Positions 3,647 through 22,295 of a DNA stretch of 64,000 bases are shown here, one piece after another (position 1 is the first letter of the stretch; every line of letters starts with the position of its first letter). The translations under genes and the position numbers were made by a program. The stretch comes from an uncultured Ruminiclostridium sp. (lineage in GTDB: Bacteria; Bacillota; Clostridia; Oscillospirales; Ruminococcaceae). The stretch lies in the NCBI GenBank assembly GCA_947594425.1, contig CANQED010000001.1, forward strand, positions 124,001 through 188,000. Reading direction: 5' to 3'. Below the pieces are notes generated by a model. The model was not told the origin of the DNA and made no database searches. It saw only the letters and a list, made by a program, of their open reading frames with translations.

Positions 3647-6600
3647 TTATTTCTTTTTGCGCTTTCCGCTGACAACGCTTGCTGCCGCGAGTGCTGCCGC
3701 TGCGAGAGCTCCGAGACCTGCTGCCGCGTCAAGACCTACGCCGGTGTTCGGGTTGGTGCCCTGAGGTGTAGTCTGGTCGAACTCTACGGTAGGTATACCG
3801 CTCTGAGGCGTCGGCTGAGTGAAGCTTATCGTGTAGTCGGTGTCAGCATCGACATCATTATCGGTATCCGTATCAGTGTCGGTATCCGTATCGGTATCGG
3901 TGTCTGTGTCCGTATCGGTATCGGTGTCCGTGTCAGTATCCGTATCGGTATCAGTATCAGTATCGGTATCTGTGTCAGTGTCAGTATCAGTGTCTGTATC
4001 CGTGTCGGTGTCGGTGTCTGTATCGGTATCGGTATCCGTGTCAGTATCGGTATCCGTATCAGTATCCGTGTCTGTATCGGTGTCAGTGTCAGTGTCAGTG
4101 TCTGTGTCTGTATCGGTATCCGTGTCAGTGTCAGTATCGGTATCAGTGTCAGTATCGGTATCGGTGTCCGTATCGGTATCGGTATCCGTGTCAGTATCTG
4201 TATCGGTGTCTGTATCGGTATCGGTATCAGTGTCTGTATCGGTATCGGTGTCGGTATCAGTATCGGTATCCGTGTCTGTATCGGTATCAGTGTCCGTATC
4301 GGTGTCACCGTCATCGAAATCGGTATCGGTATCGCCGTCGCCACCGTCGGTATCTGTATCGGTATCAGTGTCAGTATCCGTGTCAGTGTCGCTGTCGGTG
4401 TCGGTGTCCGTATCAGTATCGGTATCCGTGTCTGTATCGGTGTCGGTGTCAGTGTCCGTATCGGTATCCGTGTCTGTATCGGTGTCCGTGTCCGTATCAG
4501 TGTCAGTGTCGGTATCGGTATCCGTGTCCGTATCAGTATCGGTGTCCGTATCAGTATCGGTATCGGTGTCCGTATCGGTATCGGTATCGGTATCCGTGTC
4601 AGTGTCTGTATCGGTGTCCGTGTCAGTGTCGGTGTCCGAATCAGTATCAGTATCGGTGTCAGTATCCGTATCGGTATCGGTATCAGTGTCAGTGTCGGTA
4701 TCGGTATCCGTGTCCGTATCAGTATCGGTGTCCGTATCAGTATCGGTATCGGTGTCCGTATCGGTATCGGTATCGGTATCCGTGTCAGTGTCCGTATCAG
4801 TATCCGTGTCACCGTCATCGAAATCGGTATCGGTATCGCCGTCGCCACCGTCGGTATCTGTATCAGTATCAGTATCGGTATCCGAGTCAGTGTCACTGTC
4901 GGTATCGGTATCGGTATCGGTATCCGTATCAGTGTCTGTGTCGGTGTCCGTATCGGTGTCGGTGTCTGTATCCGTATCGGTGTCGGTGTCTGTATCCGTA
5001 TCGGTGTCCGTATCTGTGTCCGTATCAGTATCAGTATCGGTATCGGTATCGGTATCCGAGTCAGTGTCGGTGTCTGTATCTGTATCGGTATCGGTGTCCG
5101 TATCTGTGTCCGTATCAGTATCAGTATCGGTATCGGTATCGGTATCCGAGTCAGTGTCGGTATCGGTATCGGTATCTGTGTCGGTATCCGTATCAGTATC
5201 GGTGTCGGTGTCCGTATCGGTGTCGGTGTCTGTATCCGTATCGGTGTCTGTATCCGTATCAGTGTCCGTATCGGTATCGGTGTCCGTATCCGTGTCGGTG
5301 TCGGTATCGGTGTCCGTATCCGTATCGGTATCGGTGTCCGTATCAGTATCCGTGTCGGTATCGGTATCAGTGTCCGTATCGGTATCGGTATCAGTGTCGG
5401 TGTCCGTGTCAGTATCCGTATCGGTATCAGTATCAGTATCGGTATCGGTATCCGTATCGGTGTCTGTATCCGTATCAGTGTCTGTATCGGTATCGGTATC
5501 TGTGTCGGTGTCCGTGTCGGTATCGGTATCAGTATCAGTATCAGTATCCGTGTCGGTATCGGTATCAGTGTCCGTATCGGTGTCTGTGTCAGTATCCGTA
5601 TCGGTGTCGGTGTCTGTATCAGTATCGGTGTCTGTATCGGTATCGGTGTCCGTATCTGTATCTGTATCGGTATCAGTGTCCGTGTCGGTATCGGTATCCG
5701 TATCTGTGTCAGTGTCCGTATCAGTATCGGTATCGAAATCGTCATCGGACATCGGGATATCGAAGGTGTTCCAGCCGAACTCCATGCCGCCCTTATAGGA
5801 CTTAGCTATCAGCTGACCCTCGAGGTGGCGCTGTTCGCCGTTTACGTGCGAATTAGCAGCGAGAAGTGATCCGGTGTAGCCGTAAAGGTCTACGGTGCCC
5901 GCGTCGGTAACGTTAATCAGGAAGTTGCGGTATCTGTGCTCGGGATCGTTGTACTGGCTTACCTGCTGGCCATTGATGGTAACGTAATTTACACGCAGAT
6001 TAAGTACGGTGTCCTCGTCGCCGCCGACAATGTTAAGCAGTATCGTCGAGCCCTCGGGTATGTTGTTGAACGAAAGGCCTACGGGCATGCCGTTGGTGCT
6101 GTTGTTGAGCTCGTCAGCTGTTATTGTAAATACGTTAACGCCCTCCGAATATCCGGTAAACTCAAATACGCCCCAGTTGTAGGAGTATACGCCGGTGGTC
6201 TCCATAGCGGCGAGCTTGCGCGAAGCGTTTCTCAGCTTATCAAAAGCGTCGCTGAAGTTGAAGTCGGTCTTTTCGTTAACGCCGCCGATAACGGTAACGC
6301 CGCTCTGCTGATTGGAGAACTTATCCGAAACCTCGTTAGCCCAAATAACGCGTCCGCTGTCGCTGACCTTAAAGTCAGCCTTGCCGCCGACGATAACATC
6401 GGCCGCGCCCTCTCCGCCGAGGTCCTCATTGTTAAATGTGAACCATCCGTCGGAAGCGGTAACGGTGAGATCTCCGCCGACAGCGGCACGTCCGCCGCAG
6501 TCGGAGCCCTCGAGCACAGCGTCCTCTTCAACGAATATGCCGAAACCTGCGGCATATCCGAGCAAGCCGTTTACGGACTCGTAGGACTTCTCTTCAACGT

Positions 6601-6892
6601 CCATTCCGAGAAGAGAATCATAATCGATATTCTCCTGATCAAACGAACCTGCGTCAGCGGTAGCAAGCACTGACGGAAGATCCGTGTGGTAAACACTGTC
6701 AGTATAGTAGGTCTGCGATGCACCCTGTCCGAACAGATCCATATCCACGGTATTTGTCGGGGCTGCGGTGGGCAGCGAGAAAAGGCGTGCAAACAACATA
6801 TTGATAGCGAATACAAACGCTACTATCTTCCTGAGTATCTTCTTTCTCGTTGAAAGTCCGTTCTCGGGAACATTCTTTACATTGTCTGTCAT
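3647..6892 (-). CDS. Giant secreted choice-of-anchor A protein with (Asp-Thr)n repeat and NPNTG C-terminus
   Basis: A 1081-residue surface protein. The signal peptide covers about residues 18-45 (KKILRKIVAFVFAINMLFA). A choice-of-anchor A-type domain follows (about 95-385), marked by DCGGRAAVGGDLTV, VIVGGKADF and EGQLIAKSYKGGMEFGW. Residues about 387-1011 are almost pure Asp-Thr dipeptide, with occasional DS and two GGDGDTDTDFDDGD spacers. The C-terminus has NPNTG (1047-1051), an Ala/Leu-rich membrane helix and a KRKKK tail, resembling a sortase sorting signal. ATG at 6892 follows AAGGAGG. The repeat would be a long, very acidic, extended stalk, probably Ca2+-binding or O-glycosylated on Thr (inference). 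Ligand unknown. Confidence 0.85.
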   Translation of the reverse strand: MTDNVKNVPENGLSTRKKILRKIVAFVFAINMLFARLFSLPTAAPTNTVDMDLFGQGASQTYYTDSVYHTDLPSVLATADAGSFDQENIDYDSLLGMDVEEKSYESVNGLLGYAAGFGIFVEEDAVLEGSDCGGRAAVGGDLTVTASDGWFTFNNEDLGGEGAADVIVGGKADFKVSDSGRVIWANEVSDKFSNQQSGVTVIGGVNEKTDFNFSDAFDKLRNASRKLAAMETTGVYSYNWGVFEFTGYSEGVNVFTITADELNNSTNGMPVGLSFNNIPEGSTILLNIVGGDEDTVLNLRVNYVTINGQQVSQYNDPEHRYRNFLINVTDAGTVDLYGYTGSLLAANSHVNGEQRHLEGQLIAKSYKGGMEFGWNTFDIPMSDDDFDTDTDTDTDTDTDTDTDTDTDTDTDTDTDTDTDTDTDTDTDTDTDTDTDTDTDTDTDTDTDTDTDTDTDTDTDTDTDTDTDTDTDTDTDTDTDTDTDTDTDTDTDTDTDTDTDTDTDTDTDTDTDTDTDTDTDTDTDTDTDTDTDTDTDTDTDTDTDTDTDTDTDTDTDTDTDTDTDTDTDTDTDTDTDTDTDTDSDTDTDTDTDTDTDTDTDTDTDTDTDTDTDSDTDTDTDTDTDTDTDTDTDTDTDTDTDTDTDTDTDTDTDTDTDTDTDTDTDTDSDTDSDTDTDTDTDTDGGDGDTDTDFDDGDTDTDTDTDTDTDTDTDTDTDTDTDTDTDTDTDTDTDTDTDTDTDTDTDTDTDTDTDSDTDTDTDTDTDTDTDTDTDTDTDTDTDTDTDTDTDTDTDTDTDTDTDTDTDTDTDTDTDTDTDTDTDTDTDTDTDTDTDTDSDTDTDTDTDTDTDTDGGDGDTDTDFDDGDTDTDTDTDTDTDTDTDTDTDTDTDTDTDTDTDTDTDTDTDTDTDTDTDTDTDTDTDTDTDTDTDTDTDTDTDTDTDTDTDTDTDTDTDTDTDTDTDTDTDTDTDTDTDTDTDTDTDTDTDTDTDTDTDTDTDTDTDTDTDTDTDTDTDNDVDADTDYTISFTQPTPQSGIPTVEFDQTTPQGTNPNTGVGLDAAAGLGALAAAALAAASVVSGKRKKK
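3860..5733 (-). repeat. Hexanucleotide coding repeat (GAY-ACN)n
   Basis: About 1.87 kb of six-base units GAY ACN on the minus strand. All four Thr third bases and both Asp codons occur, so it is not a simple homogeneous microsatellite. Two non-repeat islands near 4307-4350 and 4811-4854 encode GGDGDTDTDFDDGD. Longer exact duplications exist inside it (4501-4605 with 4687-4791; about 5002-5070 with 5092-5160). The units keep long open frames on both strands; these are by-products. Confidence 0.95.
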
Positions 6893-6991: not shown

Positions 6992-7020
6992 ATTATAAAG
7001 CGGGCGAAAACTCGTGTCAA
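6992..7020 (-). promoter_or_regulatory. Consensus promoter of the Asp-Thr repeat protein
   Basis: On the minus strand TTGACA (7015-7020), exactly 17 bases, TATAAT (6992-6997): a perfect sigma-A consensus. The leader is about 90 bases and contains a small hairpin near 6941-6955 (TCCGCA, GGG, TGCGGA). Confidence 0.85.
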
Positions 7021-7169: not shown

Positions 7170-7198
7170 TTGACTTTTAGGGCGAAATGTGGTATTAT
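7170..7198 (+). promoter_or_regulatory. Promoter of the carboxypeptidase/MurF-like fusion
   Basis: TTGACT (7170-7175), 17-base spacer, TATTAT (7193-7198), about 75 bases before the ATG at 7279. The 386-base gap 6893-7278 holds this promoter, the divergent one at 6992-7020 and AT-rich sequence without further visible features. Confidence 0.75.
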
Positions 7199-7278
7199 TA
7201 AATTAGGTATTGATTTTTAACCGGCGAGCGAAACTAATATGTATATCCACATACTATAATATATAGGAGGATGATGAT

Positions 7279-9483
7279 ATGTCCGAAGTAAGAGCGGTGC
7301 AAAAGACCGACATGCCCGAGATAAACGCTCAGGCGGCGATAGTTGTCACGCAGAACGAGGGCAAGATATTGCTCGAAAAGAATGCGAAAAAGAAGATGTA
7401 CCCCGCGTTTATGACCAAAATTTTAGCGTCGATAATCGCGCTTGAAAAGTGCAATCCTGCCGACAGCCTTACTATACCGAAAAGCGTCGTCGAGGAGATG
7501 AAGCGGTGGAAGGGCTCGGCGTCGCTGGGTCTTGTCGAGGGCGAGCGGGTGACGGTGCTCGACCTTATATACGCCATGATGTTGACCTCGGCAAACGACG
7601 CGATGTTTGCGCTCGGAGAGTTTATCTGCGGGGGCAAGGACAAATTTGCGCAGCTTATGCAGCAAAAGGCGCACTCGTTAGGCGCGCAGGACACCTTTTT
7701 AGCCGACAAGAACGGCAAATTTACCTCCGAGCAATACTCTAACGCATACGACCTCGCGATAATCTGCCGCTATTGTATGAATAACCGCATGTTCAGGAAG
7801 ATAGCCGCGACAGAGAGCTATACTATTCCCGCCAACGACAAAAGCCCCGAGAGGCCGTTGAGCAACTCTAACCTCTTGGTAAACAGCTCATACAAGCGCT
7901 ATCGCTATCCGACAGCGATAGGCATAAAGAGCGGGTACACCGTCCGCTCAAAGTCCTGCCTTGCCTGCTCGGCGCTTCCTCCTAAGGGGAAAAGCGGCGA
8001 GGAGATAATGGCGATAGTGCTCGGCGCGGAGCTTACTAAGCAGATGAAATATGTATTTTACGACGCGATAACCCTGCTCGACTTTACCTTTGATAACTTT
8101 GAGCAGCTCAGCGGGATAAAGACCGAGAGCGCGCAGCAGCCCGAAGAAGAGGGTATGTTCACCGTCGACGAATTGTGCTCGGCGCTGAACATCACTCAAA
8201 GAAACTGCCCCGATACGCAGATAACCTCCGTGGCTTTCGGCAAGCAAAAGATAAAAAAGGGCTGCTTATATATAGCCGAGGATGAGACTTCTGCCAAGGC
8301 CGCATACAATGCCGGCGCGTCGGTGATATTATCGCAAAAGCCGACGGCGGGTATCCCCTGCCTTGTCACCCCCGACCTTAACGCCGCTAAGGACGCGCTT
8401 GCGCGCTTTATAAAGATAAAGCTCGGGCTGTGGTCGGTGGCGGTAATGGACACCCACGACAAGCTTAACCCGATGAATATGATATGCAGTATGCTCGGCG
8501 ACAGAATGAAGACCGTGCGCTGTACCTCGCTCGAGGACAACTACAATTCTATGCTCAAGGCTATGCTGTCCGCGACAAAGGACACGGGGGCGGCAGTTAT
8601 CAGCGTTTCCACCGAAGCGGATAAAAACGCGGAGAGAATAGCGCGTGTGAGCGGCACCGATATAGCCATACTGCTCAGCGCCGCGTCGTCGGCTAATCCT
8701 CGCGGGCTGTCTAAGCAGGAGCTGCTAGACGAAAAGCTCGGCATATGCAGCGGTATGTCCGAGGCGGGCGCGGCTATCATAAATATAGATGATAAAAACT
8801 TAGCGGGCATCTTTTCCATTCAGCAGGATATAATCACGATAGGCGTGGATAATAAAATGGCGGATTATTACGCCGACAGCATAGATATCCGCGAGGATAA
8901 GATAAGCTTTGATATAGTAAACGGGGCTAATATCTATCACGCCGAGATGTACACCGACGAAAAGCACGGCATATATCAGGCTCTGTCGACCTTTGCGCTC
9001 GGAGAAATAATGGGCATTCCCGCAAAGAATATACTTTCGTCTATCGAGCATTATCGCAAGACCTCGGGGCTGAGCACCGTTAAAAACGGTCAGCGCATTA
9101 CCGTGATCTCGGACTTTGACAGTACGGGCAGCGAGAGCGTCGCGGTAGCGCTAAAGGAGCTGTGCAGCGCGTATATTCCCGCCGAGGCAAGGCGGATAGC
9201 GATATTCTCCGAGATAGCGGGCGGCGGCGAGCACGAAAAAGAATTGTTCCGCAGGGTCGGCGCGGTTATCAGCAAAAGCTCGGTGGATATAACCGTCTGC
9301 TACGGCGAGACCGCCGCAAATATAGCGCAGACCGCCGACCTTAAGTCTAAGAGTGTGATAGTGTTCAGGACCGAGCAGGCACTGCTCGAATACCTGAGCC
9401 TTAATATAAGGCCTAACGACGCGGTGCTGTTTAAGGGCTCGCACGACAGCGGCCTGCCGGATATAATGGCGGAGATAACCTGA
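7279..9483 (+). CDS. Fusion of DD-carboxypeptidase-like (S11) and MurF-like domains, both apparently inactive
   Basis: A 734-residue protein with no signal peptide. Residues about 15-275 resemble peptidase S11 (PBP5 type): the SxN motif is intact (S104-A-N106) and KSG stands for KTG (217-219). The nucleophile position of SxxK reads F44-M-T-K47, codon TTT at 7408-7410. Residues about 293-734 follow MurF from end to end (FTVDELCSALNI; IIDxx-like DFDST; RRIAIFSEIAGGGEHEKELF; VLFKGSHDSG). The P-loop expected as GxxGKTTT reads DTHDKLNP (391-398). Both halves bind or make D-Ala-D-Ala in their families, so a cytoplasmic sensor or scaffold for pentapeptide precursors is possible (inference). ATG follows GGAGG. 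Confidence 0.85.
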   Translation: MSEVRAVQKTDMPEINAQAAIVVTQNEGKILLEKNAKKKMYPAFMTKILASIIALEKCNPADSLTIPKSVVEEMKRWKGSASLGLVEGERVTVLDLIYAMMLTSANDAMFALGEFICGGKDKFAQLMQQKAHSLGAQDTFLADKNGKFTSEQYSNAYDLAIICRYCMNNRMFRKIAATESYTIPANDKSPERPLSNSNLLVNSSYKRYRYPTAIGIKSGYTVRSKSCLACSALPPKGKSGEEIMAIVLGAELTKQMKYVFYDAITLLDFTFDNFEQLSGIKTESAQQPEEEGMFTVDELCSALNITQRNCPDTQITSVAFGKQKIKKGCLYIAEDETSAKAAYNAGASVILSQKPTAGIPCLVTPDLNAAKDALARFIKIKLGLWSVAVMDTHDKLNPMNMICSMLGDRMKTVRCTSLEDNYNSMLKAMLSATKDTGAAVISVSTEADKNAERIARVSGTDIAILLSAASSANPRGLSKQELLDEKLGICSGMSEAGAAIINIDDKNLAGIFSIQQDIITIGVDNKMADYYADSIDIREDKISFDIVNGANIYHAEMYTDEKHGIYQALSTFALGEIMGIPAKNILSSIEHYRKTSGLSTVKNGQRITVISDFDSTGSESVAVALKELCSAYIPAEARRIAIFSEIAGGGEHEKELFRRVGAVISKSSVDITVCYGETAANIAQTADLKSKSVIVFRTEQALLEYLSLNIRPNDAVLFKGSHDSGLPDIMAEIT

Positions 9484-9959: not shown

Positions 9960-10033
9960 TGGAGGCGCCACCCAGATTTGAACTGGGGATCACGGTGTTG
10001 CAGACCATTGCCTTACCACTTGGCTATAGCGCC
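9960..10033 (-). tRNA. tRNA-Cys (anticodon GCA)
   Basis: A 74-base cloverleaf including encoded CCA. The acceptor GGCGCTA pairs with TGGCGCC, discriminator U. The anticodon loop contains GCA. Last gene of a four-tRNA operon. Confidence 0.96.
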
Positions 10034-10038
10034 TAATA

Positions 10039-10114
10039 TGGAGCGGATTACGAGGCTCGAACTCGCTACCTCCACCTTGGCAAGGTGGCGCTCTACCGGA
10101 TGAGCTAAATCCGC
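10039..10114 (-). tRNA. tRNA-Gly (anticodon GCC)
   Basis: A 76-base cloverleaf with encoded CCA. The anticodon stem-loop is CCACC TTGCCAA GGTGG, giving GCC. Confidence 0.96.
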
Positions 10115-10119
10115 ATATT

Positions 10120-10195
10120 TGGTGCCTCCGGTCGGAATCGAACCAACGACACGGGGATTTTCAGTCCCCTGCTCTACCGACTGAGCTACAGAGGC
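10120..10195 (-). tRNA. tRNA-Phe (anticodon GAA)
   Basis: A 76-base cloverleaf with encoded CCA. The anticodon loop CTGAAAA gives GAA; the acceptor begins GCCTCTG. Confidence 0.96.
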
Positions 10196-10218
10196 AAGCC
10201 ACAAGCCGACAAGGCCTT

Positions 10219-10294
10219 TGGTGGAAGTTATAGGGCTCGAACCTATGACCCTCTGCTTGTAGGGCAGATGCTCTCCCAGCTGAGCTAAACTTCC
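10219..10294 (-). tRNA. tRNA-Val (anticodon TAC)
   Basis: A 76-base cloverleaf with encoded CCA. The anticodon stem-loop is TCTGC CCTACAA GCAGA, giving TAC. First gene of the operon. Confidence 0.96.
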
Positions 10295-17141: not shown

Positions 17142-18116
17142 TTACTTTCTCTTACGGATAACCGCTGCCGCCGCGAGAGCGCCTGCCGCCAAAATTGCGG
17201 GAGCGACCGCCACAGCAACGCCTGTGCCGGGGTTGTCGTCGGAGCCGTCGTCGGCGGAAGCGTTTCCGTCGCCGCTGCCGTCACCGTCACAGTCGCCGAC
17301 AGCGGGCTCGGTATTGCTGTCCTGTATATCACTGTCGGGAGCTTCGGTAGCCTCGGGAGCTTCGGTAGCCTCGGGAGCTTCTGTAGCCTCGGGAGCGTCG
17401 GTATCGTCGGTATCGGGGGCTGCGGCGTGCTTCTTTGCATAGCTGTCAGTCAAGAACATACCCGAGTACACCAAGTTGCCGACGTTTACCGAGAGCTCTA
17501 CAGCGTCGTATCCGTCAAAGGTCGGAAGATTTTTGAGCTCCTCTAGCTCTTCCTCGGTATTTTGGTCTAAGCCGCCATCGATAGCTTCGGCAAGGTTTTC
17601 TTCGTATAATTGTTTTATGAGATTGCCGCTTATTTTATTGCCAAACACACTGGTTAAGCCCGAGCCGCATACGCCATAATCTATCCCGTCAATTTTTCCC
17701 TGCGGAACGGTTACGGTTATTTCTTCGTTTACTCCTTCAAAATACCATGAATAGCAAAGACGTCCAGGGTGAGTATGTCTATCATATGAATACTTTTCTA
17801 TAAGCTTTGAGCCGTCCTCGGAAAAGTTATAAAAGGTAAATTTCGGCAGTGTGTTTTCATCAATGGGGTTTTCGCCGAAATCCACCGTGATAAAGCTGTC
17901 AGCCGCCAAAATACCTTCGATAGCGTCCTTTGCCTGCGAGGCGTCCCCGCCGTAATGACGCACTACCGCCATCGCCTCGTCGTCATAGCCGTCCGCGCTG
18001 GCGACGTTCTCATACTTAAAGTCAAGTGTTGCGTCCTGCGCATAAGCGCATACGCTTACGCTTGCCGCCGCCGTTGCCGCAGCCAAAATAGCCGCAGCCG
18101 TTCTTTTTAAAGTCAT
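17142..18116 (-). CDS. Secreted protein with NPGTG C-terminal anchor, function unknown
   Basis: A 324-residue exported protein. It has an Ala-rich signal peptide (residues 1-26, MTLKRTAAAILAAATAA then CAYA) and a globular part of about 205 residues with no recognised family. A linker repeats EAPEAT about three times; an acidic Asp/Gly-rich stretch follows. It ends NPGTG (295-299), an Ala/Val membrane helix and RKRK. This end matches that of the Asp-Thr repeat protein in plan. The ATG at 18116 follows GGAGGAATTTAC. A promoter lies at 18348-18377 and the 225-base leader is highly structured. A deleted copy lies just upstream. Surface attachment is inferred. Confidence 0.8.
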   Translation of the reverse strand: MTLKRTAAAILAAATAAASVSVCAYAQDATLDFKYENVASADGYDDEAMAVVRHYGGDASQAKDAIEGILAADSFITVDFGENPIDENTLPKFTFYNFSEDGSKLIEKYSYDRHTHPGRLCYSWYFEGVNEEITVTVPQGKIDGIDYGVCGSGLTSVFGNKISGNLIKQLYEENLAEAIDGGLDQNTEEELEELKNLPTFDGYDAVELSVNVGNLVYSGMFLTDSYAKKHAAAPDTDDTDAPEATEAPEATEAPEATEAPDSDIQDSNTEPAVGDCDGDGSGDGNASADDGSDDNPGTGVAVAVAPAILAAGALAAAAVIRKRK

Positions 18117-21077: not shown

Positions 21078-22295
21078 TTAGCCGAAGATGTTATTTAGTA
21101 CGCCCGCCGCGACCGCCGAGCCGATAACTCCTGCGACGTTAGGTCCCATTGCGTGCATAAGTAAGAAGTTGGAGGGGTTCTCCTTAGCGGCTACCGTCTG
21201 CGATACGCGCGCCGCCATAGGAACGGCCGAAACGCCCGCCGAGCCTATCAGGGGATTTATCTTGCCGCCCGACAGCTTATACATCAGCTTGCCGAACAGC
21301 ACGCCGCCCGCGGTCCCCATACAGAACGCCAAAAGTCCGAGGATAACTATTATTATCGTCTTTATTGTTAAGAAGTACTGCGCGGTAGCGGTAGCGCCTA
21401 CGACCACGCCGAGCATAATCGTGATTATGTTCATAAGCTCGTTTTGCGCGGTCTTTACAAGTCTGTCAACTACCCCGCTCTCTCTGAATAGGTTGCCGAG
21501 CATCAGCATGCCTACAAGCGGTGCAGCGTCGGGGATAATAAGTGCGACTACGACCGTAACGGCTATCGGGAAGATTATCTTCTCGCGCTTGGTGACAGTT
21601 CTCAGCTGTCCCATAACTACGCTGCGCTCTTTCTTGGTAGTTAGCGCGCGCATTATCGGCGGCTGGATTATCGGCACGAGCGCCATATACGAGTACGCCG
21701 CCACCGCTATCGAGCCCATCAACTGAGGCGCGAGCCGAGTAGTTAAGAATATCGCCGTAGGTCCGTCCGCGCCGCCTATGATACCTATAGAGGCAGCCTC
21801 TTTAAAGGTAAAGTCTATCACATCTATACCCGTAAGGCTGAGCAGGCACGCGCCGAGGAATGTAACAAATATACCCACCTGAGCGGCCGCGCCGAGCAGC
21901 AGGCTCCTAGGATTGGCGATAAGCGGGCCGAAGTCCGTCATACAGCCTATACCGAGGAATATCAGCGGCGGGAATATCTGCGTCTTTACGCCTATGTACA
22001 GCACATCGAGCAAGCCGCCGTGGTGGAGCACCTCGCTGTAATCGACGCCGTTAGCGACCGCCTCGGCACCCATAAACATATCGGGGTGGAAAAGGTCAGC
22101 GCCGGGGATATTCGTCAGCATCATGCCGAACGCTATCGGCAACAGCAACAGCGGCTCAAATTTTCTTACTATCGCAAGGTACATAAGCAGGAACGACAAC
22201 ACTATCATTGCCGCCTGTTCCCAGCTCATTGACAAAAAGCCCGAATCTCTGATTATAGAGCTTATCGTATTTAGAAATACATCTATAACTTCCAT
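21078..22295 (-). CDS. oadB: Na+-translocating decarboxylase beta subunit
   Basis: A 405-residue polytopic membrane protein of the oxaloacetate/methylmalonyl-CoA/glutaconyl-CoA decarboxylase beta family. Markers are GIGCMTDFGPLIANP, SIGIIGGADGPTAIF with the functional Asp of the sodium site, and a closing AMGPNVAGVIGSAVAAGVLN. It couples decarboxylation of the biotin carrier to Na+ export. The ATG at 22295 follows AAGGAGAG. The gamma subunit gene lies 43 bases upstream. No alpha (carboxyltransferase) or biotin-carrier gene is in the window, so the substrate cannot be told. Confidence 0.93.
   Translation of the reverse strand: MEVIDVFLNTISSIIRDSGFLSMSWEQAAMIVLSFLLMYLAIVRKFEPLLLLPIAFGMMLTNIPGADLFHPDMFMGAEAVANGVDYSEVLHHGGLLDVLYIGVKTQIFPPLIFLGIGCMTDFGPLIANPRSLLLGAAAQVGIFVTFLGACLLSLTGIDVIDFTFKEAASIGIIGGADGPTAIFLTTRLAPQLMGSIAVAAYSYMALVPIIQPPIMRALTTKKERSVVMGQLRTVTKREKIIFPIAVTVVVALIIPDAAPLVGMLMLGNLFRESGVVDRLVKTAQNELMNIITIMLGVVVGATATAQYFLTIKTIIIVILGLLAFCMGTAGGVLFGKLMYKLSGGKINPLIGSAGVSAVPMAARVSQTVAAKENPSNFLLMHAMGPNVAGVIGSAVAAGVLNNIFG

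Follow-up and report, generated by a model that had tools for sequence, protein, structure and literature searches.

The window analysed here is a stretch of 64,000 nucleotides from an uncultured Ruminiclostridium sp. (contig CANQED010000001.1, positions 124,001 to 188,000), in which one intact reading frame, at 7279-9483, joins a DD-carboxypeptidase-like half of peptidase family S11 to a MurF-like half. The residues of both chemistries are gone, and the protein is very likely a real and conserved double pseudoenzyme. Our preferred reading, which we hold at a probability of about one half, is that this retired fusion of two peptidoglycan enzymes would serve as a non-catalytic, apparently cytoplasmic partner of a choice-of-anchor-A lectin encoded head to head with it. 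The original prediction, made from the letters of the window, had proposed a double pseudoenzyme that is intact and has no signal peptide; this was borne out, and the protein shown to be conserved, by the losses shared with 18 relatives and by low ratios of nonsynonymous to synonymous substitution (dN/dS). The lectin pairing was absent from it, and suggests a role tied to a surface protein.

Loss of catalytic residues in both halves

The gene and its two halves have the following features.

7279-9483, forward strand: double pseudoenzyme gene, 734 amino acids, S11-like half then MurF-like half, without signal peptide
7315-8118, forward strand: S11 (DD-carboxypeptidase-like) half, residues about 13-280
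7408-7410, forward strand: codon TTT for Phe44, where S11 enzymes have the nucleophile Ser; the same codon in 10/10 genomes
7588-7596, forward strand: SAN motif, residues 104-106, kept in 20/20 sequences
7927-7935, forward strand: KSG (KTG-type) motif, residues 217-219; KSG in 19/20, KNG in 1/20
8155-9480, forward strand: MurF-like half, three-domain fold, residues 293-734
8446-8472, forward strand: former ATP P-loop, now MDTHDKLNP, residues 390-398; GKT/S in 0/19

The alignment comprised 19 full-length sequences (the window protein and 18 relatives) and one fragment. The window protein has the S11 fold and sequence profile, and its S11 half keeps most of the other positions conserved across 43 canonical S11 proteins, a reference set with many near-identical Acinetobacter sequences, so that percentages are not independent counts. 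Unlike peptidase family S11 (3mfd, Escherichia coli PBP5), the window family had the nucleophile Ser of SxxK in none of the 20 sequences, with Phe in 19 and Ile in 1; Lys47 of the same motif was invariant (20/20). S11 enzymes often carry a C-terminal membrane anchor, and the window protein bears the Mur half at that place. It also lacks the export signal peptide expected of an active S11 enzyme: within residues 1-60 the best 19-residue hydropathy was 1.05, compared with 2.25 and 1.86 in two S11 proteins of the same genome.

The Mur half was compared with 92 canonical MurF sequences. The three-domain Mur fold is present and is shared with MurF (TIGR01143; 2am1, 4cvk) across residues 292-734, but the protein scored 103.3 bits with the murF NCBIfam model and did not pass its cut-off of 288.6. 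The G, G, K and T columns of the P-loop TGxxGKT/S stand at a frequency of 1.0 in the canonical set, and the motif was found in none of the 19 full-length sequences. The position that we take to be the Mg-binding Glu had Glu in 0/19, the presumed catalytic His position had His in 1/19, and the presumed C-terminal Arg position (Arg598) had Arg in 0/19. In the N-terminal domain, the D-S-R positions were replaced by GKQ, GRQ, GKN or GKF in 19/19 and the canonical D-G-H columns were also replaced; we take both to be motifs of the UDP-MurNAc side. The Tyr of D-x-Y-N was lost as well, and the Asn after it was kept in 13/19. Shared with MurF in 19/19 were Lys486, presumably at the place of the carbamylated Lys, the N-x-D-D motif (NIDD) and Asp612, and the new loop kept D391 and P398 in all 19.

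As modelled, both folds are retained in the pseudoenzyme despite the lost residues. The S11 half was the more conserved, with a mean majority identity of 0.82; the three domains of the Mur half reached 0.65, 0.73 and 0.74. With the S11 motifs and conservation kept and the Mur positions replaced, the simplest reading is that the S11 groove has some remaining role, probably in binding, and the pattern suggests that the Mur half was retained as a fold rather than as a ligase. A new catalytic activity built from retained residues (Lys47, Ser104, Asn106 and Lys217; Lys486 and NIDD; D391 and P398 of the loop) would account for the invariance of Lys47, SAN, Lys486 and NIDD in the sequences tested and for the constant loop residues. 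We consider it quite improbable: neither the nucleophile nor the residue set for ATP and Mg remains, nothing stands out as a substitute nucleophile, and NIDD and Lys486 may be structural.

Conservation and distribution of the losses

All 18 full-length relatives, 57-73% identical to the window protein, and the one fragment carried the losses. The full-length protein was encoded in 10 of 71 genus genomes, nine of them besides the window's own and again 57-73% identical to it. A family-wide sample gave a full-length match (E <= 1e-40) in 5/396 genomes, all in the window's own genus. Six loci came from a named collection of genomes, all metagenome-assembled and labelled Ruminiclostridium, Eubacterium or Ruminococcaceae, and one of these genomes was named after a water-deer rectum sample; the host bacteria are probably gut-dwelling in general.

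The original prediction had offered orthologues with an intact Ser and P-loop as its refutation. No such full-length relative was found in two protein searches, each of which scored 7997 word-sharing candidates only, or in the 396 sampled family genomes, so the refutation failed and the losses proved to be conserved; a profile search yielded no further full-length member. Median dN/dS was 0.098 for the whole gene, 0.056 for the S11 half and 0.129 for the Mur half (0.038 for the closest pair), indicating purifying selection, with the qualification that only 19, 18 and 24 of 45 pairs, respectively, gave values (the others returned an error or no positive dS) and that nearly all dS values shown exceeded 1, which makes the medians rough. 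That a single gene has suffered two independent losses could raise the suspicion of decay or of an assembly error. Yet 10 genus genomes have an open frame, the losses are common to 19 full-length proteins and dN/dS is low, so that either is practically out of the question, and a recent pseudogene or sequencing error was ruled out. The family also carries a warning on automatic naming: its member P0004 is filed as a D-alanyl-D-alanine carboxypeptidase, an activity that is impossible for it by the known mechanism.

Origin from a mobile element was not backed by the searches, which gave partial cover only: although 132 plasmid records matched, no match reached 80% of the query, and the three loci found on viral contigs matched the S11 part only (residues 13-274). 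The same results bear on a decoy that would soak up an agent aimed at wall enzymes, be it a beta-lactam-like compound, a toxin or a lysis protein of a phage. Folds that resemble the targets but have dead active sites could in principle play such a role. A PADLOC defence-system search gave no match; without the Ser, moreover, acylation by a beta-lactam is not expected. We regard the decoy as very improbable.

Pairing with a divergent lectin gene

Upstream of the pseudoenzyme gene lies a divergent gene for a surface protein, with promoter-like sites between the two.

3647-6892, reverse strand: divergent partner gene, choice-of-anchor A surface protein, 1081 amino acids, with DT repeats and an NPNTG sorting-type end
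5759-6547, reverse strand: choice-of-anchor A domain, residues 116-378; TIGR04215, 135.1 bits, cut-off 29
3859-5735, reverse strand: hexanucleotide tandem array in the sequence, about 311 copies, encoding the DT repeats
3740-3754, reverse strand: NPNTG, which we take to be of the sorting type, with a hydrophobic stretch and then KRKKK behind it
6992-7020, reverse strand: lectin-side promoter-like site, TTGACA-17-TATAAT, perfect 12 of 12, consensus match only
7170-7198, forward strand: sigma-70 type promoter-like site on the pseudoenzyme side, TTGACT-17-TATTAT with TG extension, consensus match only
7265-7270, forward strand: AGGAGG ribosome-binding-like site, 8 bases before the pseudoenzyme ATG

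The two genes stood head to head in 10/10 carrier genomes and at an eleventh locus (L039). A strong match to the N-terminal part of the lectin (E 1.1e-59 or better) occurred in exactly the 10 of 71 genus genomes that encode the pseudoenzyme, and no genome had one gene only; 18 other genus genomes gave weaker lectin matches, mostly to the choice-of-anchor-A part. By this arrangement, the pseudoenzyme gene is half of a two-gene module with the choice-of-anchor-A lectin.

Nine chromosomal settings were counted among the 11 loci, a number that rests on the available flanks, one-sided for several loci, and only G064/G036 and G065/G069 clearly shared one. In this count, response regulators of G021 that weakly matched those of G064/G036 (two matches, 34-35%) were treated as paralogues, and one strong match was not counted: 82% identity joins a gene some 2-3 kb past the G051 lectin gene to the window's own 21078-22295, which lies about 12 kb past the pseudoenzyme, and a distant relation between these two settings is therefore possible. 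In a tree of LepA from 30 genomes, among them 9 of the 10 carriers (G054 gave no LepA match and was left out), the carriers did not form one clade and the trait needed 4 changes. G024 and G026, near relatives of the carrier G021 that encode a fusion in the reversed order, keep the block that flanks the G021 pseudoenzyme but have neither gene; a flanking gene of G021 was sought in six genomes and found in G021, G024 and G026 only. Because the lectin and the pseudoenzyme have the same presence pattern, the carriers are not a clade and G024 and G026 have neither gene, the two genes are, on these comparisons, gained or lost as a unit.

The perfect 12 of 12 lectin-side match to TTGACA-17-TATAAT recurred at 11/11 loci. 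On the pseudoenzyme side, a match of 10 or 11 of 12, oriented towards the gene, lay 84-221 bases upstream at 9/11 loci, and G001 and G032 had no clear one; on both sides these are consensus matches only. The spacing between the two genes was 337-445 bp in the 10 genomes measured. A shared promoter region, with co-travel by linkage and a pseudoenzyme role unrelated to the lectin, would agree with this spacing and with promoter-like sites that face both ways at most loci, and adjacent genes can be lost together. Chance linkage should nevertheless break somewhere, yet the two genes stay together in nine settings, and a search of 71 genomes found no case of one without the other. We judge linkage as the whole explanation to be unlikely and a functional link between the pseudoenzyme and the lectin to be rather probable. 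An Rfam scan of the window for an RNA element in the intergenic gap matched only four tRNA genes (Cys, Gly, Phe and Val), which lie downstream of the pseudoenzyme gene at 9960-10294 on the reverse strand.

The C-terminal anchor, NPNTG or NPHTG followed by a hydrophobic tail and a basic end, was present in 6/6 complete lectin frames, and long Asp-Thr repeats were found in the lectins of the 10 carrier genomes where these were readable. Residues 21-40 (window about 6773-6832, reverse strand), a signal-like segment with the pattern LRKIIAFxFAINML, had a conservation of 0.84, above that of every other 20-residue block (0.50-0.81) in the first 400 residues of the lectin. This fits recognition by a dedicated factor, although it is only a hint. 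Three sortase genes lie together on contig C21 of the same genome. The window encodes a second small surface-type protein, at 17142-18116 on the reverse strand, that ends in NPGTG, a hydrophobic stretch and RKRK. The excerpt of PMC6541295 used here describes the Acanthamoeba Jonah lectins, which have the choice-of-anchor A domain, as wall lectins with good cellulose binding. The window partner shares their domain (135 bits with TIGR04215, cut-off 29) but differs from the Jonah lectin in being bacterial and in its DT repeats and NPxTG-type end. In the open-licence PMC literature we found no paper linking choice-of-anchor, Clostridia and sortase.

Candidate roles of the pseudoenzyme

MurF adds the terminal D-Ala-D-Ala of wall peptides, the group to which S11 enzymes bind. 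In the mechanism that we propose, the S11 groove would bind, without cleavage, a peptide ending in D-Ala-D-Ala, which could be UDP-MurNAc-pentapeptide, a lipid-linked precursor, the free dipeptide or another peptide. Such binding of a peptide or precursor by the S11 half is a tentative possibility. The MurF fold, which has lost its ATP positions and the conserved ones of the UDP side, would form a docking surface, and a docking role in lectin export or anchoring is likewise doubtful, though conceivable. Together, the two halves might couple the late supply of wall precursor, or the site of wall synthesis, to the making, export or anchoring of the lectin.

The original prediction had instead placed the protein in the cytoplasm as a free sensor or regulator of wall-precursor flow, binding UDP-MurNAc-pentapeptide or D-Ala-D-Ala; in such a model the neighbouring gene has no part. 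Both halves do derive from enzymes that act on the D-Ala-D-Ala end, one by adding it and the other by trimming it, and the S11 groove motifs are kept. Because the D-S-R, D-G-H, P-loop, Mg-Glu, His and Arg positions are replaced, binding of UDP-MurNAc-pentapeptide through the MurF half is weakened; D-Ala-D-Ala may still bind through the S11 half. Similarly, the non-catalytic role held up, since the residues of both chemistries are gone, but control of wall-precursor flow in general agrees less easily with presence in only 10/71 genus genomes, in each of which the gene adjoins the same lectin gene. A free sensor is accordingly improbable in our assessment.

The same genome has another candidate for the MurF step.

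L091:5973-7568 (G000:C1, about 273972-275567): other MurF candidate, with P-loop, Glu, His, Lys and Arg columns intact

Its end is overlapped by a ddl-like gene (named by eye). The candidate is atypical in having, as judged by eye for the copy in this genome, a hydrophobic N-terminal part at the usual place of the UDP-MurNAc domain, and with 232.7 bits it fails the murF cut-off of 288.6. Across the genus, 66/71 genomes had a murF-model match at E <= 1e-45 and just 2 were above the cut-off. We infer that this gene performs the MurF step.

Several observations weigh against partnership of a cytoplasmic double pseudoenzyme with the lectin. The gene inferred to perform the MurF step scores below the cut-off. 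Phe44 is bulky and may fill or close the peptide pocket. One of the 19 full-length sequences, P0010, has a predicted hydrophobic N-terminal extension (hydropathy 1.84) that, if real, argues against a cytoplasmic place for this member; with Ile44 and KNG it also has the most divergent active site of the family. A domain search of the pseudoenzyme found no DNA-, membrane- or sortase-binding domain. The carriers are few (10/71) and related, and adjacent genes move and get lost together even without a shared function. For three of the ten lectins the contig stops within the gene, which leaves their anchors out of view. In G051 the lectin gene is split into two overlapping frames (L053:10315-11966), the second with DT repeats and an NPDTG end, while the pseudoenzyme is intact; if the split is real, the pseudoenzyme can outlive an intact lectin.

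Comparable cases are known from other systems. Pseudoenzymes derived from peptidoglycan enzymes are known singly, as in the Csd7-Csd1-Csd2 complex of Helicobacter pylori, in which Csd2 is a catalytically inactive homologue of wall hydrolases, and in the same organism the scaffold Csd5 places MurF (both from the excerpt of PMC9507126 used). These complexes differ from the window protein in that, as far as the excerpt goes, they consist of separate proteins, their MurF is an essential enzyme and no lectin is involved. PAP11, a MurE-like subunit of the plastid RNA polymerase, shows the Mur ligase fold, which it shares with the Mur half, in another complex; the excerpt of PMC4080259 lists its function as Unknown and its mutant as low in activity of the plastid-encoded RNA polymerase. 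PAP11 or MurE-like plastid polymerase chains were among the structure or sequence matches of the window protein. Unlike the window protein, PAP11 (AtMurE) is MurE-like, has no S11 half and belongs to a transcription complex of plant plastids. No paper on Mur ligase pseudoenzymes or on a 'MurF domain' was found in the open-licence PMC literature. A double fusion that is dead in all relatives seen and tied to a surface lectin would, if true, suggest a bacterial route from wall-precursor chemistry to surface display by way of dead enzymes.

Reversed-order fusions and origin of the family

The same two domain families occur in one protein in the opposite order in 22 proteins (P0064-P0085) of related Clostridia, including 4/71 genus genomes and one Lachnospiraceae record (P0083).

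L043:2947-5148, L045:4351-6585 and L046:1340-3571: reversed fusions, Mur ligase then S11 domain without the Ser-Lys pair

As in the window family, the S11 Ser-Lys pair was absent (0/22 rows). In contrast to that family, the Mur half was intact, with the P-loop GKT/S in 21/21 readable rows, so the Mur half is apparently live and the S11 half dead. The model of one reversed fusion, with a predicted local distance difference test score (pLDDT) of 89.6 and a predicted template modelling score (pTM) of 0.82, matched MurF structures; its S11 half is a Pfam match (E 2.3e-22), and no S11 chain was among the best 50 structure matches. No genus genome had both kinds of fusion, but with 10 and 4 carriers the numbers are too few to tell. 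The four loci inspected (L043-L046) had no common lectin neighbour. L046:1-396, at a distance of about 1 kb on the upstream side of the G034 reversed fusion, encodes the C-terminus of a protein with DT repeats (TPQG...NPNTGVG, as in the window lectin).

In trees built with 11 of the 19 family sequences, the window family formed one clade in both halves (Shimodaira-Hasegawa-like approximate likelihood-ratio test 100), with a treekit warning that long branches meet in the S11 trees. Approximately unbiased (AU) tests that united the window family with the reversed family gave p 0.375 for the S11 half, with five long S11 rows left out, and p 0.473 for the Mur half, with can_own and yhe_P0176 left out. 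A shared origin of the two orders was thus neither rejected nor demonstrated. The same holds for a lost MurF as source: a test of descent of the window Mur half from a G124-type MurF gave p 0.291.

The reversed fusions suggest a reusable part, in the form of an S11 domain that sits next to a Mur ligase and does not cleave. In its fullest form, our proposal would describe a new two-gene module in which the double-dead fusion reads a precursor ending in D-Ala-D-Ala and gates the export or wall attachment of the divergent lectin, as one outcome of a wider habit of Clostridia to fuse Mur and S11 domains, in both orders, without the catalytic pair; taken as a whole, this is speculative and rather unlikely. 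Two other loci (L044:4635-10701 and L047:5090-8125) held a Mur-S11-hexapeptide-acyltransferase fusion and a PGA_cap-Mur-LRR fusion together with its split form. Their neighbours include genes that, by eye, resemble those for an opine-type dehydrogenase and a UDP-sugar dehydrogenase, and this gene group is possibly a peptide or capsule pathway.

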